Shown piece by piece: positions 848 through 18,281 of a stretch of 38,327 nucleotides of DNA. The stretch is from the IMG/VR virus record IMGVR_UViG_3300027805_000036, positions 1-38,327 of that record; one strand, written 5' to 3'. Numbering within the stretch: the first letter of the stretch is position 1; every line of letters begins with the position of its first letter. The position numbers were made by a program, and so were the translations under genes. This stretch comes from a virus. A model generated the notes under the pieces. The model was not told the origin of the DNA. It made no database searches and saw only the letters and a program-made list of their open reading frames with translations.

Positions 848-1507
848 ATGAACGATTTTTATGATGGCGAAGAAGTTGTTGAAGACAAAATAGTAAACAA
901 TAAATCAAAAGAAAGTGAAAATGATATTCCAGTTAGATGGAAAGAAGCAACAACACAAATGGATTACGGAATTGATGTTGAAGCATCTTCTGTATTGTTG
1001 TTCGGTGAGATAATGGATGGTAGTCTATATGATATTATTACACGTATTCGTGCAATACTTCATATGAGAAAAGATGAAAATAAAAATGATCCCATTAACT
1101 TAATTATCAATTCCGATGGTGGTTCGGTATATGAGGCACTTGGTATTATTGACTATATGCAAAGTCTTGATGTAAAGGTTAATACAATTTGTAGAGGAAG
1201 AGCAATGTCTGCTGCTGCTCTAATACTTTGTGCTGGAACGGGTGTCCGTGCTGCTTCACAGTATAGCACAATCATGTTTCATGAAATTAGTTCTGATATT
1301 TATGGTAAGTCTTCTGACATGAAAGCAAATGTTCAACACATGGAGAAATTAGAAGAAATACTTTTGGAAATACTTAAAACAAACTCAAACAAAGACAAAG
1401 AGTATTGGAAAAATGTAACAATTAAAGATTATTATATCACACCAAAGGATGCATTGGATATGGGTGTAATTGATGCAATTATTCCACCAAAACATACGAG
1501 GGGTTGA
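848..1507 (+). CDS. clpP: ClpP-like serine protease (family S14)
   Basis: The protein has the ClpP fold signature. The NLIINSDGGSVYEALGIIDY segment (about 84-103) matches the oxyanion and handle region. The nucleophile is Ser121 in GRAMSAAALIL, the histidine is His145 in TIMFHEIS, and the likely acid is Asp194 in IKDYYITPKDA, followed by the family's GVID ending. The length of 219 residues fits a single ClpP subunit, with an acidic N-terminal extension of about 45 residues that differs from cellular ClpP. No Clp ATPase partner is visible here. In phages such proteases either process the prohead or work with host ClpX/ClpA; no capsid genes are nearby, so either role is possible. The gene sits between a membrane protein and the late sigma factor and has a strong ribosome binding site. 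Confidence 0.9.
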   Translation: MNDFYDGEEVVEDKIVNNKSKESENDIPVRWKEATTQMDYGIDVEASSVLLFGEIMDGSLYDIITRIRAILHMRKDENKNDPINLIINSDGGSVYEALGIIDYMQSLDVKVNTICRGRAMSAAALILCAGTGVRAASQYSTIMFHEISSDIYGKSSDMKANVQHMEKLEEILLEILKTNSNKDKEYWKNVTIKDYYITPKDALDMGVIDAIIPPKHTRG

Positions 1508-2621: not shown

Positions 2622-3002
2622 ATGAAATTTGATGACGAAATATTTGGTAATAAAAAATTTTCTGATTTATTAAAAGACATTTACGATAATCAGAAGAAAA
2701 AAGACCGTCAGATAAATCTTTTGATTGCTGACTTAAAGCCCATGCTTAATAATATAAGTGATGCGGCAATACTAGTTCCTGCAATTAAAGATTTTATAGA
2801 AGTTTCGGTTAAGAATGATGAACATTTAGTTAAATTAGCAGCGGTAATACAACGTGCTATAGGTAATAAAGGTGAAGAAACATCCTCATTTTTGACTGAT
2901 GAAGAAAAAGAAGCCTTATTAAAAGGTATACAAGAAATTCAACAAGATCAAGAGGAGACTGATATTGTCAATGGTATTAGATCCACAACAGACCGTATTT
3001 AA
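2622..3002 (+). CDS. Conserved small phage protein of unknown function
   Basis: This 126-residue helical, acidic protein has no signal peptide or membrane segment. Its core (LKPMLNNISDAAILVPAIKD, then EVSVKNDEHLVKLAAVIQRA) looks like a conserved helical bundle, and the C-terminus is Gln/Glu-rich. I cannot assign a function. Its end overlaps the start of the baseplate hub candidate by about 38 bases, which suggests the two are co-translated. It may be a chaperone or small partner of the hub protein, but that is inference from position only. No clear Shine-Dalgarno site precedes the ATG; the leader is A/T-rich. Confidence 0.75.
   Translation: MKFDDEIFGNKKFSDLLKDIYDNQKKKDRQINLLIADLKPMLNNISDAAILVPAIKDFIEVSVKNDEHLVKLAAVIQRAIGNKGEETSSFLTDEEKEALLKGIQEIQQDQEETDIVNGIRSTTDRI
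2951..2957 (+). promoter_or_regulatory. Ribosome binding site favouring a TTG start
   Basis: AGAGGAG lies 7 bases before TTG 2965 and 13 bases before ATG 2971, which is in the same frame. The spacing favours the TTG start, but both starts give almost the same protein (a difference of two residues). Confidence 0.5.
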
Positions 3003-4488
3003 TGGTATAAGTTACGAATGGTTTCCTGCTGAAGTTATAGATGTAGATTTTAGTGGAGTAAATAAAGAAGGACTTTATACTGTATTTTGTAGAATACATG
3101 GTGCATTTGGTTCACAAACCAATTACGATGTTATTCGTGCAAGAGCAATGGATGCAAATATAAAAAGAATACCAATACAGGGTGAAATCATATTGGTTAC
3201 AAAAGCACCATCACCATATGCAAGTGCTGTTGCTTTGTCCCAAGAATATTATTATACAAATCCAATATCTATACAATCATCGGTTCACCATAACGGTTTG
3301 CCTGGTTTAAGAGATATGGCAAAAATATTTACTCCACAAAATGTAGAAAAAAGAGAAAATGCACAGGATGGTATTGGGAATAAAGTAAAAGATAGATTGA
3401 ATACTGGTAAAATTATAGATCCTAATTTTCCGGAAAGATTTGACGTTTATCCAATTCAACCATATTCAGGTGATATATTATTAGAAGGAAGATGGGGACA
3501 ATCCATTAGATTTGGATCAACAGTTGATGAAAGAAGAACTTATCCTCAGCCACCAAGTTGGAAAAAGGGTTTGGGTGAAACCGGTAATCCAATAACTATA
3601 ATATCAAATGGAACTAATCCAAAAAATGTTCCATTTAATGAATTTATATTAGAAAGTGTGGATAAAGATGATTCATCAATATGGATGACATCCGCACAAT
3701 ATGTTAAATTTGAACCTGCCTCAAAATACACACCATCAATTGAAGATAAAAGTATAAACCTATTTATGAAAAATGAATACGGTGGCAATTCAGTTATTAT
3801 TGCATCGGATAGAATTGTATTTAATGCAAAAAAACAAGAGATAATTGGATTTAGCAAAGAGGGTATAGGATTTTCTTCTGAAAAGGGTATATCACTTGAT
3901 GGTAAACAAGTAGTAGAAATTGAATCAGAACAAAAAATAAGTTTGGGAATAAACGCTGTTTCTCCAATATTATTAGGTGATAGAACAATAAATTGGTTAG
4001 CAAAACTATGTAGAAGTTTAATATTTTTATGCGAATCTATTGCAAGACAGACACATCCAACTGGAACAGGACCATCTGGTGCTCCTATAAATGTTGGAGA
4101 TTTCATAACTACAAAATCAAAAATACAAAGTTTATTAGGAGATTTAGATACACTTCCAAGTAAATTGGCATTTGTAAACGAAAAATCTGGAGGTCCATCA
4201 AAAGTGGAAAAACAAAAAGCACAAGAAAGAGACGAGCCAACTTATATTGAAACAGATGATACTTTCCAAGAAGGCGATACATCACCATCTGTGATAAAAG
4301 GTGATTTTGCTTCTACTGCTGATATAGTAAGTCTTGTAACTGAATTGAAACGTTTACAAGATGATGAAATGACTGAATATAAAAAACTTAGCGGTGATGT
4401 TGATGTTGAAAGGGAAAAACGTATAGGAGAATTTTTAGATGAAGTCAATCGTAGAATTGATGGATTAAATGATGGAAGTGGAGGTTAA
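2965..4488 (+). CDS. Baseplate hub/spike candidate (gp5-like OB and beta-helix)
   Basis: The 507-residue protein starts with a beta-rich region (about 15-70) that contains a GEIILVTKAPSP turn typical of OB-fold hub proteins. A region at about 170-187 (GDILLEGRWGQSIRFGST) resembles a motif I associate with gp5-type hub proteins of T4-like environmental phages. Residues about 270-335 form short beta repeats (VIIASDRIVFNAKK, GIGFSSEKGISLDGKQ, VVEIESEQKISLG) that look like the start of a trimeric beta-helix spike. The C-terminal 100 residues are charged and helical. I see no lysozyme domain, unlike T4 gp5, whose cell-wall activity may be taken over by the enzymes encoded just downstream. The start is TTG 2965 or ATG 2971. 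The next gene starts 2 bases after the stop. Confidence 0.6.
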   Translation: MSMVLDPQQTVFNGISYEWFPAEVIDVDFSGVNKEGLYTVFCRIHGAFGSQTNYDVIRARAMDANIKRIPIQGEIILVTKAPSPYASAVALSQEYYYTNPISIQSSVHHNGLPGLRDMAKIFTPQNVEKRENAQDGIGNKVKDRLNTGKIIDPNFPERFDVYPIQPYSGDILLEGRWGQSIRFGSTVDERRTYPQPPSWKKGLGETGNPITIISNGTNPKNVPFNEFILESVDKDDSSIWMTSAQYVKFEPASKYTPSIEDKSINLFMKNEYGGNSVIIASDRIVFNAKKQEIIGFSKEGIGFSSEKGISLDGKQVVEIESEQKISLGINAVSPILLGDRTINWLAKLCRSLIFLCESIARQTHPTGTGPSGAPINVGDFITTKSKIQSLLGDLDTLPSKLAFVNEKSGGPSKVEKQKAQERDEPTYIETDDTFQEGDTSPSVIKGDFASTADIVSLVTELKRLQDDEMTEYKKLSGDVDVEREKRIGEFLDEVNRRIDGLNDGSGG

Positions 4489-4490
4489 TA

Positions 4491-7400
4491 ATGGCTGTAG
4501 ATCCACAAATACAATTTTTAGTAAATTTAGGTGCTCAACTTCCTGGAACTTTACCTAGTATATTATCTTCTGTTAAAAGTCCTTTTACAAAAAATTCTAC
4601 AACTGGTAAAATACAACTTCAAACAAAACCAGGTGAAGTTTATGACATATTGGAGTTTATACGATTTAATGATGCAGCTCAAGATTTGTTTGATGCTGCA
4701 CAAAATTTAAAAATAAAAGATTTAGCGGAAAGAAAAAAAGATTTTGCAAAAACTTTTATGCAGTTTGATGTTTTTGCTATTGCAGCAACAAATGAACCTG
4801 CAACTATTACTCCAGATGGTAAATTAACTGTAAATACAGAAGGTGTATTTCTATTATCTGTGTCTTTCGATCCAGCTGTAATCACCGCATATAACAAATT
4901 AGCAGAAGAAACCTATCAAAAAACTATATTATCAGCTCCTGGACCACCACCACCTCGTGGTCCAGGAGAAAGACTTTTAGATGGCATACCTGCAGCAGTA
5001 GAATCTGTTTCTGATCCATTAGGTGCATTGGAACAATTCGGTAAAAATCTTCAAGAAAAAATCGAAGATGGATATGAATTTGTTAGTGATTCGGTTTCTT
5101 CAGTTACCCAATATTTAACAAAACTTGCAATAGGCGCAAATAATGAATTTAATAATTTTTTGCAAGCATTAAGAGATGCTGCAGTATCACTTGATCCTGG
5201 TTTTGGTAAATTACTCGAAGCTGAAATTGCTTTAATTTCACAAAAAATAAAAGATAATCAAAAAGCATCTTGGATTGGTGGTTTACTAAAAATAGATTTA
5301 TCAGATATTCCAATTATTGGCGGTGGACTAAAGATTATTGAAGACTCCATAATTGCTGCAGTAACAATTGGACAAGCTCTGACAGGTTCCATTTCAAACT
5401 TGGCACAAAATTTAGTAAGAGAGGCATTCAATAGAATAGAAGATTTTTTAGCCATAGAAGATAAATTATTAGGTATGGCGGCAACTGTTCTTAGGACTGA
5501 TGTACGTACTATAAAAAAAGTATTGCAAGTAATAAAGGATATTCAAAGAATACAGAATTTACTTATCTCTGGAAATTTAGGAGAAGCTGCTGAAACTATA
5601 AAACAGGCATTGATAGATAGTGGAGCATTTAAACAAGAAGAAATTGATGGTAAATTGGATTCACTTGTAAATTCTGGAATTTCATTTCTTAGTGGAAACA
5701 TTTTAGACTTTTTATTTCCACAAAAAAAAGGTTTAATTGTAAAACGTGATTTAAAAATGACAACAAATACTGTTGGAGTTTTTACGATAACTAACCCACG
5801 TGAATTGGGAAATAATTTACAAGTAACTGAAATTATTTTAAAAGACGTAAATATCGATGGAACTGATATAATAATAGACTCTGTTGAAATTGTTTCTGGT
5901 GGCAATTTTTCTGTAATGAATAGCGAAACCGATCTAGATGATGCTATTGATTTTGAAGCGGAAATACCAATAATTATACCACCAGGACAGTCTGCTCAAA
6001 TAAAAATAAATTTTAGAAATCCAGATAAGTTAGAAGGTGTATTGAGTATAAGGTCAGAATTTAATTATGTTGGATTAAAGCCAGATAAACAAATAGATCA
6101 AAACGGCAAAGAAATAATAACACAAGTTATAGATGAAGATGATGATTTAAATGAAACATATACAAACCAGGTAGTAACTCCTGGATCTAAAAAAGTAATT
6201 CAACCAAAATCTACAGATCCAAATGATCAAATAAAAAATATACAAGATCAATATGCAAAAGCCGTTGAAGAATTTTCAAAATCTCAAAGATTACTAACCG
6301 ATAAAACTGCTGCATTAGAAGAAGCAAAGAAAGTAGGAGGCAAAGCATTACTTGATGCATCAAAAGATCTACAAGATGCTCAAAAAACATTAGAGGAAAC
6401 ACAAAAAAAATTAGACGATGTAAAAAAGAGATTGGATGATGCTCTATCAACAGTTCAAGCTGCTGAAAAGGCAATAGATGATTTTAAGAAAAAAAATTAT
6501 ATGGATGCTTTAAACCGAGTTGATTTTAAAAAATTACCGCCGGAACTTGGTGCATTATTAACATCAGAAGGTGTAAAACTTGGTATAACCGAAGATGATA
6601 TAAAGAAATATTATGAAACTATTGAAGAAGGTGCAAAAAAAGTAACCAGAGCAAGAGATTTAATTGGAAAAAATAATCCAATATGGAAAAATCTTGAAAA
6701 GTATCAACAAGCAAGTCTTGCTGAAAGATTAAGATTAACTTGGGAATTATTGAATGATACGATAGATATACACAATGGAATGCAAGATATATTTGGTGAT
6801 CCAAAAAATAATATAGAAAAAGTTGCAGATCCTGTTGGTAGTTTAGATACACTAACACAACAATATAAAGAAAAAATGTTAAAACTTGTTGCAGATGGTA
6901 TAAAATTACCAAATGGTGTATTATTAACTTGTGATTCAATTGATGAGGCCACAAGACAGGCAATTGGTATTGCTCTTGGCATATATCCTGATCCAACAAT
7001 AAAAAATGATAAAAAAAGATTTGATGATTGGAAAAACAGAATATGTAACTTTTTTAATGCAGCTGAAAAGGTAAAGGAAATTCATAGAAAGAGAGAAAAC
7101 ATAAGAAATGAAATAGTTAAGAGAACCAATAAAGAAAGAGAGAAAGCAAAAAATAGAAAAGATAATAAAACTGAAAATAAAGTTCCAGTTAAAGACGGTA
7201 ATAAAGTTAAGGGAACTGAAAAGAAAATTAAAAGATCCAATAGAGGCAAACAAATATCAGGTGTTGGCGATAAAATATATCGCATTGATCCAGTAGTTAA
7301 TGTTGGTGGTCCTGGAACAACAAATCCAATAAAAGCAAGAGAATTATCAAAAGAAGTTACGGTAATTCCTGTTCCAGAAATGGCTTTTTATGAAGATGAA

Positions 7401-10232
7401 TTTAGAACTCATTATGAAAGTATAGGTATAACACCTGACACTATACAAGACATATATGACAATGCAGAACAAATTGTTGCTGATCCTATAATGGATTTGA
7501 AAGACAACATGGAATCGGGTAATACAGGAGCAGTAAAAGGTTTTATACCAAACGGTCAATCCGAAGAAACTTCAGGAACCGGTGGAACTGGAGGCATATC
7601 AATAACACCACCTTCAGGAACCGGTGGAACCGGAGGTACATCTATTGTAGAAGGTGTTACAGGATTTAGAGAATTTGAAGAAGGTGTTGAGGGAAAAGAT
7701 TATGGTACATATACTGTTTATGCTGATGAAACAAAAACAAAATTTAGTGTGGATGGACAAACATTAGATACACCATTTTTATATGCAATTTATAGATATG
7801 TTTTGTGTAGTAATGATACGCCGGAAACAAGTAAATCGAGGGCAAGGGCAAATATTTTAAAATTTAAAGATGAATTAAGCAAAAAATATTTTATACAAAG
7901 TTCAGATGAATATGTTGGTGATGATTCATGTCCAAACGATGAAATTCAAATAAGATTAGTTCCTAGTACTGGACCAAGCGGTGATATTATATTAAAAAGA
8001 GAGGCATCCGAGAAAAAAATACGAACTGGTCCTATTGATGTAGAAAATACATATATTGATGCAAACGGTAAAATACAAGAAGCACCTGCTTTGATAAATG
8101 AAGGTGAAACTGGCTATAAATGGAGAGATAAGGCAGGCATTCAACAACCAATACCATTTATTTATCCAGAAGATGAAGAAAATGTAATAACATATGATCC
8201 ATCACTTTTTGAAACTAAAGATCCTCAAAATAACGATCAAAAAAGTGTAAGAGAAAAAATAATTTATTTATTACAAACCGGTGGTATAAGTGCATCTAAA
8301 ATATCTTTTGATGTTTTAACTGATGGATCAGTTGTTTGGGATGGTGAAATAAAAATAAATAAGAAAGGTTTAACCGGAGATGGAAAAATACCATTAAAGT
8401 TTGCAGTAGTTAATGGTAAATTTGATTGTTCGGGATTAGATTTAACCACATTAGAAAATTCACCAAAAATGGTATACGGTGAATTTGACTGTTCTAATAA
8501 TAGATTGACAACATTACAAAAAGGACCAATTGCAGCCGTTTCTTTTGTTGGTGACAATAATCCATTAGGAGACGGAACTGGATTAAAATATGGACCACAG
8601 GCCGTTATTGGATGGCCAAGTGGAACTATAATAAATGGATCGGATGGTTACATATATTCTTGTTCTAATTGTAAATTAGAAAATTTAAAAGAAAATGGTT
8701 TAGTGGTTTTAGGCGATGGTGGTTTAAATTTAAGTAAAAATAAATTAAGCAGTTTAGAAGAACTAAACGATGCTACTAGAGATGGTATATTTTCATTAGA
8801 TATAAGTGATAATGAATTTTCATCATTAGATTCAATTCCACCAATTAAATCTTTACTTGCTTTTGATGAAAATTGGTTGGATTATGAAACCAAAGCTTAT
8901 TATTTTGATCCGTTAAATGCTGCAAATGGCGGAGAAATGAGTTATGGTACTAATAAATTACAACAAAGAACAACAGCAACAATAAACAATTTTATTTTGT
9001 CATTTAATAATAAAACAAAAAATTTAGTAAAACCTGGTGCAGGTGCATCCGCTGATATGCAAATTCGTGAATTTTTATCGGATTCATTTTTACCAAAATC
9101 ACAAACTTCTGACACTTATCAAAAACCAAGAGCAACTATTGATGAAATAAAAACTGTTCTTGCTAAATTAGATGAAATGAATTTAATAAATGGTATAAAT
9201 TATCCATGTATAGTATCTATAAGAGATTACTTTTCAGGATTAGAATCCGGTAGAAACAAATATAGAGATGCAATATTTTTGATGATAAGCCCAACAGAAA
9301 TGTATTCCTATAATGCAAATACATTACCATCTAATTCTGGAGTAAATAATAATATAGGAATTGGTTATCCTGTATTGCAACCTGGAAAATATGTCTATAC
9401 ATTAGGTTATCATAACGGTCAAACATTAAAAGATTTTCCTGCATTAGTTCAACCGTCTATTCAAAATCAAGGACAATCAAAAAATAGTAACAAAGGGGTT
9501 ATTGACCAAACGCTTAGAGGTCTTATTATAGATGTATGGAAAGCCGGATTGAAAGATAAACAAATAAATAATAAATCTACAATTGCAAAATTTGTAACTA
9601 GAATATTTCCTAGTATTTCAAGTGTTGATCCAGAAGATCCGTTTGATATACGCAACAACTTAAATATACAATCTATTTTTGGAAAACAATTTATTAAAAC
9701 TCTACCAATTCCAGAAATTTACAAAGCCATTTTTGATTATTTTCCAAATCTTAGCAGTGCAGTTCCTCCTGGAATATTTAACACTATTACTGATATAATA
9801 AAATCAACACAGTATAAAGTGCCAAACTCACCATTTATATTCATGCGTGATGAATCTTCCGATACATTTGTTGATGTATTAGGTTTAGTTCAAACAAATT
9901 TACATCCAGGTGGTTTTAAAGATACTTGGTCAATCGGTTGTCAAACCATTCCCTTTTCATTAAAAGTTACTAATGGGAAACAACCAGTTGGTACAAAATA
10001 CAATCAATGGAGTGATTTTTACAATCGTGCTAAAAATGCAATTGAAAAAAGAAATTCAACATTAAATGAAAATTCTAATTTATTTGATTCAATAGAATAT
10101 ATTTTAATAGAAAATCCATTTAAATCTGCACCAAAAAAAGAAACACCTATACCAGGACAAATACGAAATAATTTTGATATGATTACAAAATATCCAAAAA
10201 ATTTATTAGAAATTCCTGATTTTAAATTTTAA
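4491..10232 (+). CDS. 1913-residue mosaic tail protein with C-terminal HPGG/SxGC domain
   Basis: This is the largest gene in the window. Visible segments in order: an N-terminal domain (1-145); a Pro-rich linker (GPPPPRGPGE); helical and hydrophobic segments to about 410; a beta-sandwich resembling Hydin/choice-of-anchor D modules (about 412-525, with IPPGQSAQIKINF); a coiled coil (about 578-670); a Lys/Arg-rich segment (about 843-923); two Gly/Thr-rich linkers near 1027-1049; a leucine-repeat-like block (about 1303-1467: FDCSGLDLTTLENSP, FDCSNNRLTTLQKGP, LSKNKLSSLEEL, LDISDNEFSSLDSI); and a C-terminal domain (about 1543-1913). The last contains PGKYVYTLGYHNG and then His1805, Ser1814 and Cys1817 in HPGG-x5-S-x-GC, followed by QWSDFY. 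The His/Ser/Gly-Cys pattern is reminiscent of L,D-transpeptidase (YkuD-like) active sites. A virion role as a hub, tape-measure-like or penetration protein is inferred from position and size. Confidence 0.6.
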   Translation: MAVDPQIQFLVNLGAQLPGTLPSILSSVKSPFTKNSTTGKIQLQTKPGEVYDILEFIRFNDAAQDLFDAAQNLKIKDLAERKKDFAKTFMQFDVFAIAATNEPATITPDGKLTVNTEGVFLLSVSFDPAVITAYNKLAEETYQKTILSAPGPPPPRGPGERLLDGIPAAVESVSDPLGALEQFGKNLQEKIEDGYEFVSDSVSSVTQYLTKLAIGANNEFNNFLQALRDAAVSLDPGFGKLLEAEIALISQKIKDNQKASWIGGLLKIDLSDIPIIGGGLKIIEDSIIAAVTIGQALTGSISNLAQNLVREAFNRIEDFLAIEDKLLGMAATVLRTDVRTIKKVLQVIKDIQRIQNLLISGNLGEAAETIKQALIDSGAFKQEEIDGKLDSLVNSGISFLSGNILDFLFPQKKGLIVKRDLKMTTNTVGVFTITNPRELGNNLQVTEIILKDVNIDGTDIIIDSVEIVSGGNFSVMNSETDLDDAIDFEAEIPIIIPPGQSAQIKINFRNPDKLEGVLSIRSEFNYVGLKPDKQIDQNGKEIITQVIDEDDDLNETYTNQVVTPGSKKVIQPKSTDPNDQIKNIQDQYAKAVEEFSKSQRLLTDKTAALEEAKKVGGKALLDASKDLQDAQKTLEETQKKLDDVKKRLDDALSTVQAAEKAIDDFKKKNYMDALNRVDFKKLPPELGALLTSEGVKLGITEDDIKKYYETIEEGAKKVTRARDLIGKNNPIWKNLEKYQQASLAERLRLTWELLNDTIDIHNGMQDIFGDPKNNIEKVADPVGSLDTLTQQYKEKMLKLVADGIKLPNGVLLTCDSIDEATRQAIGIALGIYPDPTIKNDKKRFDDWKNRICNFFNAAEKVKEIHRKRENIRNEIVKRTNKEREKAKNRKDNKTENKVPVKDGNKVKGTEKKIKRSNRGKQISGVGDKIYRIDPVVNVGGPGTTNPIKARELSKEVTVIPVPEMAFYEDEFRTHYESIGITPDTIQDIYDNAEQIVADPIMDLKDNMESGNTGAVKGFIPNGQSEETSGTGGTGGISITPPSGTGGTGGTSIVEGVTGFREFEEGVEGKDYGTYTVYADETKTKFSVDGQTLDTPFLYAIYRYVLCSNDTPETSKSRARANILKFKDELSKKYFIQSSDEYVGDDSCPNDEIQIRLVPSTGPSGDIILKREASEKKIRTGPIDVENTYIDANGKIQEAPALINEGETGYKWRDKAGIQQPIPFIYPEDEENVITYDPSLFETKDPQNNDQKSVREKIIYLLQTGGISASKISFDVLTDGSVVWDGEIKINKKGLTGDGKIPLKFAVVNGKFDCSGLDLTTLENSPKMVYGEFDCSNNRLTTLQKGPIAAVSFVGDNNPLGDGTGLKYGPQAVIGWPSGTIINGSDGYIYSCSNCKLENLKENGLVVLGDGGLNLSKNKLSSLEELNDATRDGIFSLDISDNEFSSLDSIPPIKSLLAFDENWLDYETKAYYFDPLNAANGGEMSYGTNKLQQRTTATINNFILSFNNKTKNLVKPGAGASADMQIREFLSDSFLPKSQTSDTYQKPRATIDEIKTVLAKLDEMNLINGINYPCIVSIRDYFSGLESGRNKYRDAIFLMISPTEMYSYNANTLPSNSGVNNNIGIGYPVLQPGKYVYTLGYHNGQTLKDFPALVQPSIQNQGQSKNSNKGVIDQTLRGLIIDVWKAGLKDKQINNKSTIAKFVTRIFPSISSVDPEDPFDIRNNLNIQSIFGKQFIKTLPIPEIYKAIFDYFPNLSSAVPPGIFNTITDIIKSTQYKVPNSPFIFMRDESSDTFVDVLGLVQTNLHPGGFKDTWSIGCQTIPFSLKVTNGKQPVGTKYNQWSDFYNRAKNAIEKRNSTLNENSNLFDSIEYILIENPFKSAPKKETPIPGQIRNNFDMITKYPKNLLEIPDFKF
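7571..7636 (+). repeat. Tandem Gly-Thr linker repeat inside the mosaic protein
   Basis: A 24-base unit (7571-7594) recurs at 7613-7636 with one mismatch, a period of 42 bases. Both copies encode SGTGGTGG. They flank a short ISITPP stretch and look like a flexible interdomain linker. Confidence 0.75.
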
Positions 10233-10248
10233 ATAATTGGTATAAATT

Positions 10249-11562
10249 ATGGCTAAACAAAAAGATAAGTTGCCAAATGAAAAACTTGGAAAAATTAGTG
10301 TTGCTGGTAATCCGATTCAATCTTTGCCACCTGAAACTGCTGATATAAAATGTAAAGAATTTGATTGTTCTGATACACTATTGGATAATCTTGGTTATGC
10401 TCCTGGATTAGTTACTGGAGATATTATTTGTAGAAATATAAAAAAACCATCCGGTGAATTAAATAGATTTACTCAATATCATCTCGGTGCTGGTAGATTT
10501 GGTTCATTTGAAGGTCCTGAAGATGAAGATATTAACAGACCAGTTAAAGTTGATGGATCATTTATTACCGATTCCAATGTTTACAAATCACCAAAGATGT
10601 ATGATATAAAAGTAGGTGTTGAGGCAGTAGAAGATGTTGATGCAGAAATAGAAGAAAGCAATGATATTTCTGGAGTTGTTCAACTGGCAAAAGGATACCA
10701 GATGTTTGTTGGAATTAAAAATCCAATTTTGGCATTTGAACAAGAACAATCAGAAGTGTCACCTGGTATATTTGTGGATTACTCAAAAAGATCTAGAAAC
10801 GCACCATATCATGCTGATTTTAAAGTTAGACAAGGTTTGACAGGAGGAACTACCGATTATTGTGGTATTCGACCTTCTATTTATGGTAAAACTAAATGGG
10901 ATGGTTGGGGTGAACCGCCGTTTAATTTTAATGGTTATGTAAATTGGAGTTTCTTTAATTGTTACAATGGAAAAGGTAGTGGACAGGAAGATGGAATAAA
11001 AGGAAATCACATCGGATGGGGAAAATGGGCAATCATAGGAACAACTATTTTAAATGGAAAACCTCTAGGTGCAAAAACAGATTCAATGAAAAATAGACCA
11101 GTTTATTATTATGTAAATGGTGATCCTAAAATGTATAGATTGCGTGGAAAAGAAATATACTATGCGAAACCATACACAACTGGTATTTCTTTTGATGAAA
11201 AGGGAATACCATCATATAAAGATGCAGCATACAAGGCTAATTTTTTTGATAATATAAGGATAGCAATACCAGTTGCTGGTGGTCCTCATATAGAAAACGA
11301 TAAATTAACAGGTAATGCATCTTACAATGACGGACCTTTTCCGTTTTTTGGTAAATTGAGTAATAATACTTATTTTGCAGGATATGGTAGTGCAATGACT
11401 AATGCCGCAAAACTTGTAAAAAAATATTTTAATGATAAGGGATTAAAAGTTGAATGGATGGATAATGGTGATGGTGGTGGTTCAACTCAATTATATGCAA
11501 GAGGAAAATCTATAAAATCAAGTGGTAGACAAATTCCTTCCGTGATTGGTTGGAATGAATAA
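10249..11562 (+). CDS. Phosphodiester glycosidase-like (NAGPA) tail protein, copy 1
   Basis: The 437-residue protein has a short N-terminal leucine-repeat-like cap (about 14-58: KISVAGNPIQSLPPET, KEFDCSDTLLDNLGYAPG) related to the block in the preceding giant protein. The rest fits the NAGPA/phosphodiester glycosidase family. It shows an NWSFFNCYNG segment (near 232) like the family's NGGFF motif, an ILNGKPLGAKT segment, an IRIAI strand, the FFGKLSNNTYFAGYG hairpin and the signature DNGDGGGSTQL (Asp405 to Ser412), ending in PSVIGW. The family cleaves sugar-1-phosphodiester bonds, for example GlcNAc-1-phosphate linked to another sugar. On a tail this could attack capsule, teichoic-type or phosphoglycan polymers; the substrate is unknown. 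No clear Shine-Dalgarno site is present. It is paralogous to the next gene. Confidence 0.65.
   Translation: MAKQKDKLPNEKLGKISVAGNPIQSLPPETADIKCKEFDCSDTLLDNLGYAPGLVTGDIICRNIKKPSGELNRFTQYHLGAGRFGSFEGPEDEDINRPVKVDGSFITDSNVYKSPKMYDIKVGVEAVEDVDAEIEESNDISGVVQLAKGYQMFVGIKNPILAFEQEQSEVSPGIFVDYSKRSRNAPYHADFKVRQGLTGGTTDYCGIRPSIYGKTKWDGWGEPPFNFNGYVNWSFFNCYNGKGSGQEDGIKGNHIGWGKWAIIGTTILNGKPLGAKTDSMKNRPVYYYVNGDPKMYRLRGKEIYYAKPYTTGISFDEKGIPSYKDAAYKANFFDNIRIAIPVAGGPHIENDKLTGNASYNDGPFPFFGKLSNNTYFAGYGSAMTNAAKLVKKYFNDKGLKVEWMDNGDGGGSTQLYARGKSIKSSGRQIPSVIGWNE
10555..10598 (+). repeat. Near-identical block shared with 11895-11938 (copy 1)
   Basis: The 44 bases encoding GSFITDSNVYKSPK differ at one position from 11895-11938 in the next gene. 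The identity is higher than in the flanking paralogous sequence and suggests recent duplication or gene conversion. Confidence 0.8.
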
Positions 11563-11572
11563 TTATATTAAA
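11563..11572 (+). promoter_or_regulatory. TTATATTAAA decamer, candidate late promoter element
   Basis: The decamer TTATATTAAA lies 26 bases before the start at 11589. The same decamer precedes the genes at 12907 and 15458. It could be a divergent analogue of the T4 late -10 element (TATAAATA), but the region is AT-rich and chance is possible. Confidence 0.3.
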
Positions 11573-11588
11573 TAGAAATAATAAAAAT

Positions 11589-12875
11589 ATGGCTAAAGAA
11601 AAAGATAAACCTGCAAATGAAAAACTTGGAAAAATTAACGTTTCTAATAATAGATTACAAGTTTTTCCACCGGAAACAGCTAATATACACTGCAGTGAAT
11701 TTGATTGTTCTGAAAATTTTTTGGACAGTCTTGCATATGCACCTGGACTAATAACAGATGATTTAATTTGTAGAAAGAATAAATCGGTATCTGGTGAAAA
11801 TAATATTTTAAATCAATTCCATCTTGGTGCTGGCAGATTTGATTCATTCGGTGGTCCCGAGGATAAAAACCAAAATAGACCAGTTAAGGTTGGTGGATCA
11901 TTTATTACTGATTCCAATGTTTACAAATCACCAAAGATATATGATTTAAATGTTGCTGTACCAACCGATGATGTAAATTTAGATTCAGGTATTTTAGATG
12001 ATGATAAAAACTTAATAAAAATTAAATATAAAATAGGTAATGATGATATTACATTATTCATGGTAATAGGAATACAAGAACCTAAATTTGGTTTTGATTT
12101 AAAGGGATTACCAGAATTTGAGGCAAGGGGACAATATGGTTATGGTTCACGTGGAAATGGTCAACCAGTTCATGGTTTTTTTGTTCAAAGATTGGGATTG
12201 AATGGTCCACACGGTAAACCTGGAAATAAAGCTTATGGTGGTTTTGTGCCTCCAGATGGATTTAAGGGTTGGGGTGATCCACCATTTAATTTTAAAAATT
12301 ATATCAATTGGGGTTTTTTTGAAGCACAAGATGGAACTGGTGGTGGATCAGAATCAAAATATAAATGGGGACCTTCTCAAGCAAATGGTGTAACGGTTTA
12401 TCAAGGAAAACAATATGGTGCTAAAACATATTCGCATTCTTCACATCCATGTTATTATTATTTAAACGATGATCCTAAAATGTATAGAGCAAAAGGTGGT
12501 GATATTTTTAGGTCATTAGAAGGTCAAACTGTTTCCGTTACATCAAAGGCATCATTCTTTGAAAATATAAGAATAGCAATTACTGGTGCAAGAACTATCA
12601 TTACTAATAATCAAAGTTACATAACGGAAGGTTATGTAGGAAGACACCCATTTTTTGGAAAACTTGATGATGGGACATATTTTGCTGGCGTTTCTACTAA
12701 TATGATTGTAACTGCACAAAAAATATTAGATTATTTTAAAAAAGAAGGAAAAAAAGTAGAATGGACAGATTGTGGTGATGGTGGTGGTTCAGCACAAATT
12801 GCTAGAAATGGTAAAATGATAGAAAAGGATCCTGAAAGATATAATAGACCTGTTGCAACTGTTATTGGTTGGTAA
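11589..12875 (+). CDS. Phosphodiester glycosidase-like (NAGPA) tail protein, copy 2
   Basis: This 428-residue paralogue of the preceding gene has the same order of parts. An N-terminal leucine-repeat-like cap (KINVSNNRLQVFPPET, SEFDCSENFLDSLAYAPG) leads into a conserved GAGRF...GPED linker and GSFITDSNVYKSPK. The NAGPA-like domain contains YINWGFFEAQDGTGGGS, VYQGKQYGAKTYS, IRIAITGA, HPFFGKLDDGTYFAGVS and the signature DCGDGGGSAQI (Asp394 to Ser401), followed by ARNGKMI and a terminal ATVIGW. The middle part (about 120-190) differs strongly from copy 1, so the two may recognise different glycans or form a hetero-oligomer. The ATG is preceded by an A-rich leader (AAATAATAAAAAT) without a Shine-Dalgarno site, a style seen in Bacteroidota genes. 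Enzymatic activity is inferred from motifs only. Confidence 0.65.
   Translation: MAKEKDKPANEKLGKINVSNNRLQVFPPETANIHCSEFDCSENFLDSLAYAPGLITDDLICRKNKSVSGENNILNQFHLGAGRFDSFGGPEDKNQNRPVKVGGSFITDSNVYKSPKIYDLNVAVPTDDVNLDSGILDDDKNLIKIKYKIGNDDITLFMVIGIQEPKFGFDLKGLPEFEARGQYGYGSRGNGQPVHGFFVQRLGLNGPHGKPGNKAYGGFVPPDGFKGWGDPPFNFKNYINWGFFEAQDGTGGGSESKYKWGPSQANGVTVYQGKQYGAKTYSHSSHPCYYYLNDDPKMYRAKGGDIFRSLEGQTVSVTSKASFFENIRIAITGARTIITNNQSYITEGYVGRHPFFGKLDDGTYFAGVSTNMIVTAQKILDYFKKEGKKVEWTDCGDGGGSAQIARNGKMIEKDPERYNRPVATVIGW
11895..11938 (+). repeat. Near-identical block shared with 10555-10598 (copy 2)
   Basis: This is the second copy of the 44-base block in the NAGPA-like paralogues, with one mismatch to copy 1. 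Confidence 0.8.
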
Positions 12876-12881
12876 ACATAA

Positions 12882-12891
12882 TTATATTAAA
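12882..12891 (+). promoter_or_regulatory. TTATATTAAA decamer, candidate late promoter element
   Basis: This is the second occurrence of the decamer, 25 bases before the ATG at 12907. AGAGG (12896-12900) supplies a ribosome binding site 6 bases before that ATG. Confidence 0.3.
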
Positions 12892-12906
12892 ATATAGAGG
12901 AATAAC

Positions 12907-15432
12907 ATGGCAGTTCCAAACCAGACAATATTGACTATAAAAAATTATCAATTAAAACATGCATATAATTCAGATGGATCATTAACCGCTGATTTAAAAG
13001 TTGAATTGAATGTTGAACTTGAAAAAAATTATGTTGATAGAGTTAATAATACACTTGAAAAAGTATCTTCCCAATTATTAACAATTGATATTGATAATCA
13101 GGATGCAACATTAACAGTAGACGGTGTAAAATATAGTGTTGATCAAATATTTAATGGACAAGGTGAAACTACCGGTACTAGAAATGCCGCTGGTGTTTTA
13201 ATTCTGCCATCAAATCTTGTAATTATACCGTTTAGACCAAATTTATTAGATCGTTTACTTAATAGTGCATCACAAGATAAAAATGGATTTACTTCAAAAA
13301 CATTAGAGTTATGGTCTTTAAGATACAATTCAATTAGAACTAGATACGAAAATGAAGTTAAAAAAATAGATGAAAATGCTAGTAGATCTAATGGAAATGG
13401 ATCATTAAACGATGTTGAAATCCTAAATCCAAATTTAACAGATGAAGATAAGGCAAAATTAAATGAAACAGAACAAAATAATACAACCTTTGAGAAAACC
13501 GATGTAAAAGGATTTGGATCAAATCGTTTAATAGCTGAAAGTTTTAATATAAATAAAGATGGGGTTAGAACACTAAAAATAGGTGAAAGACACGCAACTA
13601 TAACTGCAGATGGATTTATAGATGTTGATGGAGTTCCTGTTCCATTAGAGGACGTTATCATAATAGGAAATGGTGTTGCTATATCTGTTTTAGAGGCAAT
13701 AAAAACAAATCCAGAAACAACTTGGTTTTACGATCAAATAATTGCAACAAGAAATATACAAACACCTTCAACATCAAATGGTGAAGAAATTGATTTTGAA
13801 AAATTGTGGTTATCAACAGAGGGATTATTTGAAGGTCCATCTACCGATTTAATAACAGATGCCAGTGCAACAGATGATATAAATGATGCAGATGATGGTT
13901 CAACAACCGGTGGTGATTCATTGAATAAAGATGATGTAAAAGCAAAGTCACAAAAAACACCAGATGGTGGACCCGATCAAGTGGAACAAAGTCCTGCTAT
14001 GACTAAAAGAAATTTTGAAAGAATACAAAGCAGAGTTAGTGATATATCTCCAAATTTATTAGCACAAAATCAAAGACAAACTGGTAAAATTGGAAAACCA
14101 GGATGGTGGGCTTTTAGGAGGTATCCAGATAATACACCATATGGAAAACCGGAATATGAATTTTCTGGAGTAGTAAATCCCGGTCAATCTTGTACTATTG
14201 ATGGTAAAATAGGTAGTGTACAATATCACTTCAAAGGTGATTTAATGACACTACGAAAGAATACAGGAAGAGGTGCCAATGTAATTACCGGTAGAGAAAA
14301 TGTGGTTGATTTTCCAATTTGGATGAATTTTCCAGAAGTTGGAATTTGGAATAAATTAGTCCCATATATCGCAGATAATCAAACAGAGCAACATATGGGA
14401 ATGATACCTGCTGGTAGAACATACTTTCACAATTTACCAGGTGGTTACGGTATAGGACTTTATTCAAATGTTGAGTTGAATAAACCAGATGAGGCAAATT
14501 GGGGCATAGCTCCGCCTTGGTGTGGTATAACAACAAACGCGGTTGTTAAACACGGTGGATATATGCACTATCATGGTAGTGTAATTGGTGCAGCGGATGG
14601 TGCTGAGGATTGGTGGAAAAAATCATCCGAAAATTACAAAAAAGGAAATACGGAAGAACAAGTTGGTTTTTCAAAATGGGGAATGTTTGCAGCAATTCCA
14701 ACATCAATTCAAGATGCAGAAAATGTGCCAATTAAAAATTATTTTAAAACTGACAAAAATGGAAATGATTTTTGGAGCAAAGGTAGTCACCAATCAACTG
14801 ATGCATATTTGGATAAACCGATAATAGAAAAATATACAGAAATGGTTGAAAGACGAAAAACTGTATATGAACAGGATCCAGTTAATCCTAAAAAAAGAAT
14901 AAAAAAGGTAGTAATAACACAGGAGCCAGTTGTTAAAACACGAAGTATTCCTCAAATTCATTACGAACAACTTTTACCAAACCCAACTGGAATTATGTTT
15001 TTACGTGGTGTACATTATGATTTAGAAAACGGTATAACAAAAGTTGGAACTAGATTATTGGATCATTTATTCAATCAAACTGGTTGGGAAATTGGTGTAA
15101 TTACAAGAAACAGTCATGTTGAGACTATATTATATTTAAATCCTGATTTAACGGGAGTAAATATTGGAGGAAATACTGGATCAAAATATTCAAAATTTTT
15201 ACATCAAGGCAATCACATGGCTGTAAAAAAGTTTGACGTAAAATGGCCAGGTAAAAGTAATTTTTTTGTAATAACAAAAACAGTTTCTACTTGGGGATCT
15301 CAAAAAGTTGAATCAAATTTAAACGGAAAATTCAGAAGAACTCCAATAGTTAATAGTTATTATAGTCTAATAGGTAAAGAGCCAAATATATTTTCTGATT
15401 TGAAACTAATGTATGATAGAATTTTGGATTAA
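12907..15432 (+). CDS. Tail protein with CHAP-like peptidoglycan hydrolase domain
   Basis: The 841-residue protein has a structural N-terminal half (1-290) and an Asp/Thr-rich linker (about 300-345). Its C-terminal half shows the pattern of CHAP/NlpC-type cysteine peptidases: Cys539 in PPWCGITTNAVVKHGGY, His737 in TRNSHVETILYL and Asn756 in NIGGNTGSKYS, in the catalytic order Cys, His, Asn. CHAP domains cleave peptide cross-bridges or the amide bond in peptidoglycan. The spacing between Cys and His (about 198 residues) is much longer than in a compact CHAP domain, so an insertion must lie between them (GAADGAEDWWKK to KTRSIPQIHYEQLL). It follows the two NAGPA-like proteins and precedes the wedge genes, which suggests a virion-associated enzyme. 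The motif match is by eye, and a purely structural role remains possible. Confidence 0.55.
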   Translation: MAVPNQTILTIKNYQLKHAYNSDGSLTADLKVELNVELEKNYVDRVNNTLEKVSSQLLTIDIDNQDATLTVDGVKYSVDQIFNGQGETTGTRNAAGVLILPSNLVIIPFRPNLLDRLLNSASQDKNGFTSKTLELWSLRYNSIRTRYENEVKKIDENASRSNGNGSLNDVEILNPNLTDEDKAKLNETEQNNTTFEKTDVKGFGSNRLIAESFNINKDGVRTLKIGERHATITADGFIDVDGVPVPLEDVIIIGNGVAISVLEAIKTNPETTWFYDQIIATRNIQTPSTSNGEEIDFEKLWLSTEGLFEGPSTDLITDASATDDINDADDGSTTGGDSLNKDDVKAKSQKTPDGGPDQVEQSPAMTKRNFERIQSRVSDISPNLLAQNQRQTGKIGKPGWWAFRRYPDNTPYGKPEYEFSGVVNPGQSCTIDGKIGSVQYHFKGDLMTLRKNTGRGANVITGRENVVDFPIWMNFPEVGIWNKLVPYIADNQTEQHMGMIPAGRTYFHNLPGGYGIGLYSNVELNKPDEANWGIAPPWCGITTNAVVKHGGYMHYHGSVIGAADGAEDWWKKSSENYKKGNTEEQVGFSKWGMFAAIPTSIQDAENVPIKNYFKTDKNGNDFWSKGSHQSTDAYLDKPIIEKYTEMVERRKTVYEQDPVNPKKRIKKVVITQEPVVKTRSIPQIHYEQLLPNPTGIMFLRGVHYDLENGITKVGTRLLDHLFNQTGWEIGVITRNSHVETILYLNPDLTGVNIGGNTGSKYSKFLHQGNHMAVKKFDVKWPGKSNFFVITKTVSTWGSQKVESNLNGKFRRTPIVNSYYSLIGKEPNIFSDLKLMYDRILD

Positions 15433-15457: not shown

Positions 15458-15886
15458 ATGGACACTAAAAAGTTTTTACAAGAGATAAGATCGATAATAA
15501 GAGAAGAAATAGATTATGCTCTTACTAAAAAAATATCACAAAAACAAACTAAAAATACTGATATTTCTACATTAAATCATGGTCTTTCCATGTATAATGA
15601 AACACAACAACCAAAAAAAACTGTAAAGGCAAAAACTCAAAAAACAGAATTTAATTCAATACAAGATCTTCTTGCTGAAACAAAAAGAAGTCTTCAAGAA
15701 AGTTATGAAATGGAAGAAGAATTTAGGTTTACATCAGAAATGGCGGAAGGTTTTGGACATGAAAAAAGTTCAAATGCAATTCCACATGGGTATTCAAAGG
15801 CAGAAATTCCAGCAGAAGTAATGTCTGCATTAACAAAAGATTATTCCGCTCTTATGAAAAAGATAGAAGAGCAAAAAGGGAGATAA
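15458..15886 (+). CDS. Small helical protein upstream of gp25, unknown function
   Basis: This 142-residue, highly charged protein has an N-terminal amphipathic helix (KFLQEIRSIIREEIDYALTK), a Gln/Lys/Thr-rich linker (about 45-68), a second helix (IQDLLAETKRSLQESYEMEEE) and a C-terminal helix (PAEVMSALTKDYSALMKKIE). It has no membrane segment or enzyme motif. The gene has an AAAAGGA site at good spacing and lies 6 bases before gp25, so it is probably a baseplate-assembly or minor wedge component. I do not recognise a named family. It could also be an assembly chaperone. Confidence 0.75.
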   Translation: MDTKKFLQEIRSIIREEIDYALTKKISQKQTKNTDISTLNHGLSMYNETQQPKKTVKAKTQKTEFNSIQDLLAETKRSLQESYEMEEEFRFTSEMAEGFGHEKSSNAIPHGYSKAEIPAEVMSALTKDYSALMKKIEEQKGR

Positions 15887-15892
15887 TTTATT

Positions 15893-16402
15893 ATGAGATT
15901 CAGAAGAAAATCGTCTCTCCAAACATTTGTAAATCCAGGTGACCAAAGAAACGAAAACGGCAATAAATATATTGGTGTTACTATTCCATTTAATAATCCA
16001 AATGGAATCTTTTTTCAAAGCACAACCAATATAAATCAAGTATATTCTAATTTAAAAAATTTACTTATGACTGCCAAGGGTGAAAGGTATATGTTGCCAG
16101 AATTTGGAACAGAGATACGATATATTCTTTTTGAAAACATAACTGATGAAGAAAATTTTGTTGAAACAATAAAAACTGATATATCAAATGCTTTAAAAAT
16201 GTGGCTTCCATATTTAGTAATTGAGGAATTAAGTGTCAATATAAATATTGAAAATGATGGTAGAGTTGATGATCCTACTCATGCCGTTGGTATAAAATTA
16301 ACTGTAAGAATAGATAAAACACAGATATATTTACCAATAAAGATATTTATATCTGTTACAGGTAACATCACATTAGAGGCAATTTACGATGGCACTGGTT
16401 GA
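15893..16402 (+). CDS. 25: Baseplate wedge subunit gp25
   Basis: This 169-residue protein belongs to the gp25/GPW family of contractile tails. The diagnostic core (about 53-81, NLKNLLMTAKGERYMLPEFG and then TEIRYILFE) forms the knob that binds the sheath initiation site in T4. A second conserved part (ALKMWLPYLVIEELSVNI, then GIKLTVRI) is the typical C-terminal half. T4 gp25 helps start sheath assembly and links sheath to baseplate. The N-terminus carries about 30 extra residues compared with T4 gp25 (132 residues). The end overlaps the gp6 gene by 14 bases, and the order gp25-gp6 is the usual one in contractile injection systems. Confidence 0.93.
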   Translation: MRFRRKSSLQTFVNPGDQRNENGNKYIGVTIPFNNPNGIFFQSTTNINQVYSNLKNLLMTAKGERYMLPEFGTEIRYILFENITDEENFVETIKTDISNALKMWLPYLVIEELSVNINIENDGRVDDPTHAVGIKLTVRIDKTQIYLPIKIFISVTGNITLEAIYDGTG

Positions 16403-18281
16403 AAAAGATATACGTTATTTAGGTAGAGATTTTCCTACATTAAAACAAAACTTAATTGATTTTGCAAAAAATTATTTTCCTGACACATATCAAGATTTTA
16501 ATGAATCTTCTCCGGGAATGATGTTTTTGGAAATGGCAGCATATGTTGGTGATGTTTTATCATTCTATACTGATGTTACGTTACAAGAATCAATGATATT
16601 ACATGCAACAGAAAAGAAAAACATAGTAAATATTGCTCAATCATTGGGGTATATGCCAAAAAATAGAATATCTGCAAATACAAAAATAGATATTTTCCAA
16701 GTTGTTCCATCAATTCAAATAAGCGGTGATATAGTTCCGGACTTTAATTATGCACTTGCAATCGAACCAGGAATGATAGTTGGAACAAATAATATAAATT
16801 CTCAAACTGAATTTAGAACAATAGATTATGTTGATTTTAAATTTAGTAGTAGTTTTGATCCAACAGAAATAACACCTTATGAGGCAGATGATGTTACAGG
16901 TGAAGTGTTATATTGGTTATTAAGAAAATCTGCAAAAATAGTTTCTGGAAAAACTGCAACAAAACAATATACGTTTGATTCACCCAAACCATACGATAGA
17001 GTTACTTTGGATGAATCAAATTTGATAGAAATTTTATATGCCGTAGACACAGAAGGAAATTTATGGACTCATGTTCCTTACTTAGCACAAGACACAGTTT
17101 TTGATTCTGTTGTAAATATCCCAAGAAACGATGCAAAACTTAGCAAATATAGAACCGAGACACCATATCTTTTAAAATTAAAGAAAATACCAAGAAGATT
17201 TACTTCAAGACACGTTTCAGATGGTGTATATGAAATTCAATTTGGTGCAGGTATTTCAAATTTGGATGATGAACTATTGATACCTAATCCAGATTTAGTA
17301 GGTGGATCTTTAAACAAATATACAAACGATGTTACACTTGATATTGATCCATCAAACTTTTTGTATACGAAAACATATGGACTTGCACCTTCAAATACAA
17401 CTTTAACATTTTACTATACAACTGGTCAAGGTATTAAAGATAATGTTCCATCTGAAACTCTTACAAAAATTTTAAAGTATAATGTAACTACCGATCCACA
17501 AGGATTGGATGAAGTTCTCTATAATGCTGCTGTTTCAAGCGTAGCTGTAACAAATCCAAATCCTGCAACAGGTGGCAAATTTAGTGAAGATGTAAATGAA
17601 ATACGTCAAAATGCACTTGCTTCTTTTGCTGCACAAAATAGAGCAGTTACAAAAGAAGATTACATAATTCGTGCATATTCACTACCACAACGATATGGAT
17701 CTATAGCCAAGGCATATATTACGAAAGATACACAATTAACAACGGAATCTGTTTTTAATAGCGATAGAGTACAAAATGGGTTAGGATTAAATTTTTATGT
17801 TCTAGGTTACGATTTAAATGAAAAATTAACAACTGTTAATGACGCAACAAAAGAAAATTTAAAAACATATTTAAATTATTATAGAATATTAACAGATGCA
17901 ATAAACATTAGAGATGCCTATATTATCAATGTGGGAATAGATTTTGATGTAATAACTTTGCCTGACCAAAATTCAAACCAAGTTGTACTAAAATGTATAG
18001 ATAGATTGAAACAATATTTTGATGTAAAAAAATGGCAAATAAATCAACCAATTGTTGTTAGTAATGTTTATACTGAATTGGATAGAGTCGAAGGTGTACA
18101 AACTGTTGTTAGTGTAAAATTTAAAAACTTAAACGATGTGACACTTGGTTATTCTCAACACGCTTACAATTTGGATGCTGCTACAAAAGATGGAATAATT
18201 TTTCCATCATTGGATCCATCTATTTTTGAAATAAAATTTCCAAATAATGATATATTTGGTCGTGCGAGGGCACTTGGATGA
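16389..18281 (+). CDS. 6: Baseplate wedge subunit gp6 (gpJ-like)
   Basis: The 630-residue protein matches T4 gp6 in size (660) and in motifs. The N-terminal YLGRDFPTLKQNLIDFAKNY (10-29) and SPGMMFLEMAAYVGDVLSFY (41-60) segments are the hallmark of gp6/gpJ wedge proteins. A central AQNRAVTKEDYIIRAYSLP segment (near 412) is the conserved gpJ core. The C-terminal half contains the LKTYLNYYRILTDAINIRDA region. Two gp6 chains, with gp7 in T4, form the wedge ring that triggers sheath contraction. The start overlaps gp25 and the stop overlaps the next gene by ATGA, so translation is coupled through this block. Confidence 0.95.
   Translation: MALVEKDIRYLGRDFPTLKQNLIDFAKNYFPDTYQDFNESSPGMMFLEMAAYVGDVLSFYTDVTLQESMILHATEKKNIVNIAQSLGYMPKNRISANTKIDIFQVVPSIQISGDIVPDFNYALAIEPGMIVGTNNINSQTEFRTIDYVDFKFSSSFDPTEITPYEADDVTGEVLYWLLRKSAKIVSGKTATKQYTFDSPKPYDRVTLDESNLIEILYAVDTEGNLWTHVPYLAQDTVFDSVVNIPRNDAKLSKYRTETPYLLKLKKIPRRFTSRHVSDGVYEIQFGAGISNLDDELLIPNPDLVGGSLNKYTNDVTLDIDPSNFLYTKTYGLAPSNTTLTFYYTTGQGIKDNVPSETLTKILKYNVTTDPQGLDEVLYNAAVSSVAVTNPNPATGGKFSEDVNEIRQNALASFAAQNRAVTKEDYIIRAYSLPQRYGSIAKAYITKDTQLTTESVFNSDRVQNGLGLNFYVLGYDLNEKLTTVNDATKENLKTYLNYYRILTDAINIRDAYIINVGIDFDVITLPDQNSNQVVLKCIDRLKQYFDVKKWQINQPIVVSNVYTELDRVEGVQTVVSVKFKNLNDVTLGYSQHAYNLDAATKDGIIFPSLDPSIFEIKFPNNDIFGRARALG

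Follow-up and report, generated by a model that had tools for sequence, protein, structure and literature searches.

The window analysed in the present study, a virus contig of 38.3 kb with a G+C content of approximately 30%, carries the structural region of a T4-like myovirus and is probably a genome fragment. Four contiguous open reading frames on one strand, designated P1 to P4, lie between a hub/spike-like gene and genes for gp25-like and gp6-like baseplate wedge proteins (Table 1), and endonuclease, primase, and SbcCD-like genes are located to the right of gp6. The first-pass annotation described a run of four tail proteins with candidate envelope-degrading domains between the hub candidate and gp25, and the open reading frames and motifs were found as it stated. 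Regarding the protein at the left edge, the label "hub" rests on its position because a PDB search returned no match. P8, a small protein encoded just 5' of gp25, is kept in most related loci.

Table 1. Features of the window, with nucleotide positions and, for domains, residue ranges
Feature	Nucleotides (strand)	Length or residues	Basis
Head maturation protease	848-1507		
Hub/spike-like protein, left slot edge	2971..4488 (+)	505 aa	dozens of loci with a homologue (~50-67% identity) in this position
P1	4491-10232 (+)	1913 aa	ORF present
P1, N-terminal part, partly coiled coil	4491..8321 (+)	1-1277	blastp against relatives; weak coiled-coil-type matches at 558-673
P1, leucine-rich-repeat (LRR)-like region	8322..8840 (+)	~1278-1450	blastp against relatives, E down to 1e-38
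P1, PHROG 3000-like domain, first part	9114..9548 (+)	1542-1686	own HMM 46.6 bits; PHROG 3000 profile 6.6e-4
P1, insert splitting the PHROG 3000-like domain	9558..9815 (+)	~1690-1775	family alignment; AlphaFold2 pLDDT mostly <60
P1, PHROG 3000-like domain, second part, with H1805, S1814, G1816, C1817	9828..10115 (+)	1780-1875	own HMM 25.7 bits
P2	10249..11562 (+)	437 aa, with an N-terminal module common to relatives	ORF present
P2, NAGPA-type domain	DGGGS at 11470-11484	~225-435	hhalign
P3, P2 paralogue	11589..12875 (+)	428 aa	ORF present
P3, NAGPA-type domain	DGGGS at 12777-12791	~233-428	Pfam and hhalign
P4, putative slot-terminal enzyme	12907..15432 (+)	841 aa	in relatives, homologues lie directly ahead of the P8 homologue and gp25
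P4, slot peptide KxxAKxKxxxSPExAPxxVxxSxAxT	13927..14007 (+)	341-367	regular expression
P4, CHAP/NlpC-P60-like part	14518..15186 (+)		C539 at 14521-14523, H737 at 15115-15117, N756 at 15172-15174
P8, between slot and gp25	15458..15886 (+)	142 aa	conserved
gp25-like baseplate wedge protein	15893..16402 (+)		Pfam GPW_gp25 2.7e-9; PHROG baseplate wedge 5.6e-13
gp6-like baseplate wedge protein	16389..18281 (+)		PHROG baseplate wedge 6e-25

Since direct searches of phage records and viral contigs with P3, P4, and the C terminus of P1 gave nothing usable, relatives were reached via gp6, the hub, and a DNA pattern for HxGG..SxGCQ. Relatives of gp6 were encoded on 492 viral stretches, and the closest named relatives by this protein were Microcystis phage Mel-JY01 (68%) and the Flavobacterium immuto phages (42%). 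Sequence searches against solved structures with P2/P3, P4, the hub, and PHROG 3000 were empty or yielded noise.

Both edges of the interval were in view in 57 distinct loci (individual loci are given L numbers below), in which the slot, taken from the hub-like gene to gp25 with P8 excluded, contained one gene in 31, two in nine, three in 16, and four in one, namely, the window. A recognised enzyme domain was present in 52 of the 57 slots in varying combinations, a count that describes the slot and is no proof of enrichment because the census HMMs were partly built from slot proteins and, thus, lean towards the slot. Among these 52, a P4-type protein alone (15), GH19 with M15 (nine), GH19 (eight), and NAGPA with a P4-type protein (six) were found, the remaining slots included others with lysozyme or CHAP, and fusions of slot enzymes also occur; some relatives carry two to four enzyme domains in one slot. 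Independent Pfam models agreed with the census for lysozyme, M15, CHAP, and NAGPA, with matches of slot proteins to Phage_lysozyme (3e-21), M15_4 (1.2e-13), NAGPA (4e-14), and CHAP (3.8e-8), and the slot of Mel-JY01 holds an annotated putative chitinase. The other five of the 57 slots had no enzyme recognised by the profiles used in the census. Slot proteins of L270, L272, L268, L083, and L084 (of, for example, 628 and 1263 aa) matched none of the enzyme profiles, and these slots may hold unrecognised enzymes. Judging from gene order and homology, the hub-to-gp25 interval appears to be a fixed slot in which one cutting enzyme is exchanged for another. Synteny, which the first-pass annotation had proposed as a check, held for the position of the slot in the 57 loci, but not for its contents, which vary.

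P2 and P3 are 49% identical, and both carry GDGGGS near their C termini. In the profile search, P3 scored 16.6 bits against Pfam NAGPA (PF09992), spanning profile positions 18-167 of 169, below the curated cut-off of 25 bits, and P2 on its own had no match to this model; relatives from the P2/P3 family exceeded the cut-off with 53-58 bits, those in the slots of L012 and L013 having 54-58 bits. When the P2/P3 family was compared with these relatives by hhalign, a match of 98.1% (E 9.3e-14) was obtained over 182 columns, which include N..FF (INWGFF in P3 and VNWSFF in P2) and DxGGS, presumably the active-site motifs of NAGPA. The NAGPA-like call made earlier from DGGGS was upheld by this alignment, which supports the assignment of P2 and P3 as NAGPA-type proteins. 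Several of their relatives have an altered motif, such as SDGSAS or ADPGGS. In L005, L006, L010, and L013, the NAGPA-type domain ends a protein in which it follows LRR-like repeats, and, therefore, P1 and P2/P3 resemble reshuffled pieces of a single modular family. Approximately 10 relatives have, elsewhere in the genome, an additional NAGPA gene that stands alone and encodes approximately 216-239 aa (PP395634.1, 97053-97685; L267, 200-856; L270, 1919-2575; and further related records); it is annotated as hypothetical in Mel-JY01.

Regarding P1, the motif HPGGFKDTWSIGC is located at residues 1805-1817. The DNA pattern for HxGG..[SW][ST]xGCQ.I matched at least 120 viral stretches vs. approximately two expected by our own rough estimate, and the 80 stretches kept all encode one protein family of approximately 185 aa. 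An HMM built from 20 representatives of this family and searched against all open reading frames of the first locus set matched P1 twice, with a total E of 2e-22 over HMM positions 7-184 of 186; because it also matches a 145-residue stretch away from the motif, the homology of P1 is independent of the motif by which it was found. With one protein family behind this pattern and the P2/P3 family aligning to Pfam-positive NAGPA relatives, the motif signals reported in the first-pass annotation exceed chance. PHROG 3000, a family of stand-alone phage proteins without functional annotation, was matched by 19 of the 20 representatives, and its profile also matches the window directly and had no match in the 41 related records. 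The C terminus of P1 is, on the basis of these alignments, a PHROG 3000 homologue, and among the related records searched, the window is the only one with this domain in the slot.

Across 21 aligned sequences comprising the PHROG 3000 family and P1, the residues H, S, G, C, Q, T, and I are invariant. P1 keeps H, GG, S, GCQTI, N, and one of the two Asp among the PHROG 3000 invariants, and departs from them at the Asp of NTDPS, which is Leu, and the first Asp of YDDA, which is Arg. While residues 1542-1875 align along the whole family, P1 differs from the stand-alone proteins in its fusion to a 1913-residue protein in a tail operon and in an insert of approximately 95 residues, without which the domain proposed earlier cannot be aligned as one unit. 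No relatives of this insert, which spans approximately 85-95 residues, were detected. In the AlphaFold2 model, the core of the domain mostly had pLDDT >80; this confident core gave no significant match in a PDB fold search, and a Foldseek search of BFVD returned viral proteins, one of which is named Lysin (6.9e-4, prob 1.00). Near stand-alone PHROG 3000 genes, small membrane-protein ORFs were present in 37 of 134 cases upstream vs. five of 138 downstream (p 2e-8, with two upstream neighbours considered and loci that are not independent), a gene order like that of a holin-endolysin pair. A PHROG scan of these neighbours gave tail-fibre and miscellaneous names, with no holin among the matches listed. 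The P1 C-terminal domain may accordingly be regarded as a candidate Cys/His-dependent lysin.

The N-terminal part of P1 has a gene of its own in some relatives (e.g., L006 and L008), and weak matches to Pfam LRR_4 were obtained in relatives for the LRR-like region. A tape-measure role of P1, which was suggested by the coiled-coil matches, was set aside because single-gene slots lack P1.

The Cys/His/Asn set that led to the earlier description of P4 as CHAP-like is present. C539 (PWCGI) precedes a predicted helix, and H737 (SHVET) is at the start of a predicted strand and is followed by GGN756 (IGGN), which is the order of TIGR02594, CHAP, and NlpC/P60 proteins; in P4, unlike in these, a large and variable insert separates Cys from His, and P4 alone falls below every library cut-off, with no match in Pfam, NCBIfam, PDB, or any library tried. 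TIGR02594 was weakly matched by eight of the 28 P4 family members (best 0.0018), and hhalign of the family against CHAP relatives gave 55% over 28 columns, covering the His/GGN part only. The AlphaFold2 model of P4 had a pLDDT of 68, and a Foldseek search with it against PDB was empty, probably due to the insert and a long predicted hairpin. P4 is probably a CHAP/NlpC-P60-type Cys-His-Asn domain protein, with only moderate confidence because the model had no PDB match, and is termed CHAP-like here rather than filed as a member of these families because neither Pfam nor NCBIfam matched it.

Of the 28 P4 family members, 19 retain Cys as well as His and eight have the two replaced by Ser/Tyr or Asp/Arg, while in the last one Cys is lost and the His region is outside the coverage. 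A phage lysozyme domain is fused to some of the relatives without the pair. This paired loss would resemble the fate of two catalytic residues that a newly acquired enzyme has rendered dispensable. The homologues without Cys/His keep the domain (L050, L053, L056, L059, L061, L063, L065, L066, and L023) and often carry or adjoin another enzyme, such as lysozyme or GH19. In the L059 protein (4910-7960), residues ~110-140 (HIIVAFSKGC...) resemble an alpha/beta-hydrolase nucleophile elbow, and its N-terminal part is possibly a further slot enzyme.

A short peptide is common to slot-terminal proteins of the CHAP type, lysozyme-fused type, and GH19 type, including the GH19 protein of Mel-JY01; among 744 ORFs of >=150 aa, 24 matched its regular expression, and the peptide is present in 23 slot proteins. 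In several relatives (e.g., L023, L036, and L063), the hub protein has at its C-terminal end LRR-like repeats that are homologues of those in P1, and such hub proteins appear to be a physical link between the hub and the cassette. Longer hub-like genes (687-854 aa) were present in L022, L023, L036, L060, and L063. The enzymes may dock through the slot peptide and the LRRs. A more far-reaching proposal, which we offer tentatively and hold to be somewhat doubtful, is a plug-and-play mount in which the slot peptide and hub-shared LRRs would dock GH19, M15, CHAP-like, lysozyme, or NAGPA enzymes, with PHROG 3000 as a new class of Cys/His-dependent peptidoglycan hydrolase recruited only here among the phages seen.

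We consider it likely that P1-P4 constitute a cassette of exchangeable tail-tip enzymes with which a T4-like myovirus penetrates the envelope. Gene order, homologies, slot conservation, the exchange of catalytic domains, and the joint keeping or loss of Cys/His in the P4 family are the observations behind this proposal. The four proteins would be present in the virion and attached at the hub, with the following presumed substrates and order of action. The slot between the hub/spike gene and P8-gp25-gp6 would replace the lysozyme domain of T4 gp5 and be filled with exchangeable envelope-cutting enzymes, and P1 would bear its PHROG 3000-type domain on a long carrier of coiled coil and LRRs. Upon tail contraction, P2 and P3, as phosphodiester glycosidases, would locally cut surface glycans or sugar phosphates, and P4, probably together with P1, would locally cut peptidoglycan, which would allow the passage of the tail tube. 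P1-P4 may attack peptide cross-links and phosphodiester-linked glycans, and a layered host surface would be compatible with the cassette.

The slot domains may instead be mainly receptor-binding or structural, with the NAGPA-, LRR-, and CHAP-like folds serving as a baseplate adhesion device or scaffold that is hardly or not at all catalytic. The subset of P4 relatives that keeps the domain without Cys/His, the altered motifs in P2/P3 relatives, the nature of LRR-like repeats as typical interaction modules, and the Leu of P1 at the invariant Asp of NTDPS are all in keeping with such a role. However, Cys and His vanish jointly, often where lysozyme or GH19 is present, which fits enzyme replacement, the copies in the window retain H/C, DGGGS, and C/H/N, and bona fide hydrolase families occupy the slot elsewhere; we regard a non-catalytic role as quite improbable. 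That the P1 C terminus and P4 are lysis or superinfection enzymes acting late in infection rather than in entry has very little to commend it: stand-alone PHROG 3000 genes come after small membrane-protein ORFs in the manner of endolysins, but the P1 domain ends a 1913-residue protein in a baseplate operon, without an adjoining small membrane gene, and the hub-gp25 position of the slot is constant in the 57 loci.

The cassette described above would also be compatible with a different identity for the C terminus of P1, for which the first-pass annotation proposed a profile search with PF03734, the family of YkuD-type L,D-transpeptidases. The order of HxGG and then SxGC is similar to the YkuD signature. 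A YkuD assignment was not supported by profiles, hhalign, or the fold search, and was rejected in favour of PHROG 3000: PF03734 had no match in 42 records (the window and 41 related ones), hhalign of the P1 C-terminal family against four L,D-transpeptidases of E. coli, LdtA/B/C/E, gave 0.1%, and the PDB fold search was without a significant match. One PHROG 3000 member has a YkuD match at E 0.07, and the Bdellovibrio Bd1075 structure, which we take to be a YkuD-type L,D-carboxypeptidase, was at rank 42 in the PDB fold search (E 6.5). A true YkuD L,D-transpeptidase/carboxypeptidase that is too divergent for sequence methods is, in our judgement, unlikely.

The baseplate hub lysozyme of T4, gp5, has a single lysozyme domain inside the spike protein, and a single tail enzyme is what descriptions of myoviruses usually report. 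The proposed cassette is like gp5 in that a cell-wall enzyme at the tail tip is encoded with baseplate genes and would act in penetration; it is unlike gp5 in having up to four separate, exchangeable enzyme genes after the hub gene, and no T4-type lysozyme domain was found in the window. Multiple tail-associated lysins per tail have already been described: according to the portion of the report consulted, enterococcal phage tail lysins have several wall-targeting domains per tail module, and an endopeptidase is "often" found together with a glycerophosphodiester phosphodiesterase (GDPD), a teichoic-acid phosphodiesterase (PMC10194240). The likeness to the present case is in the several envelope-cutting domains per tail module; the enterococcal phages differ in their Gram-positive hosts and in GDPD where the window has NAGPA, and that portion of the report mentions no constant slot between hub and gp25 whose enzymes share a peptide (PMC10194240). 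Regarding NAGPA in phage tails, nothing pertinent was found in the literature beyond a study on Curtobacterium prophages, which reported NAGPA-like, glycopolymer-degrading depolymerases of 427 aa with a predicted NAGPA fold (PMC9862828). These are similar in length to P2 and P3; they differ in that they are single and from prophages of Gram-positive hosts, and the study mentions no pair of copies within a baseplate slot (PMC9862828).

The first-pass annotation knew of no tail with this combination. As far as searched, this holds for the exact set, but not in general, since a tail module with a peptidase and a teichoic-acid phosphodiesterase has been reported for enterococcal phages (PMC10194240), and relatives of the window also combine enzyme domains in the same slot. 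What is new, within our searches, is a constant, refillable slot with a shared peptide in a T4-like lineage, together with the joint loss of Cys/His in P4 relatives and the occurrence of PHROG 3000 within a tail protein.

A lineage in which a conserved slot is refilled with different hydrolases, encoded by up to four genes, would represent a natural experiment in how tail enzymes track host envelopes. The present results also provide a functional lead for PHROG 3000 and for the P4-type family, which is not recognised by present libraries, and the shared slot peptide leads to a testable prediction of how the enzymes may be mounted.
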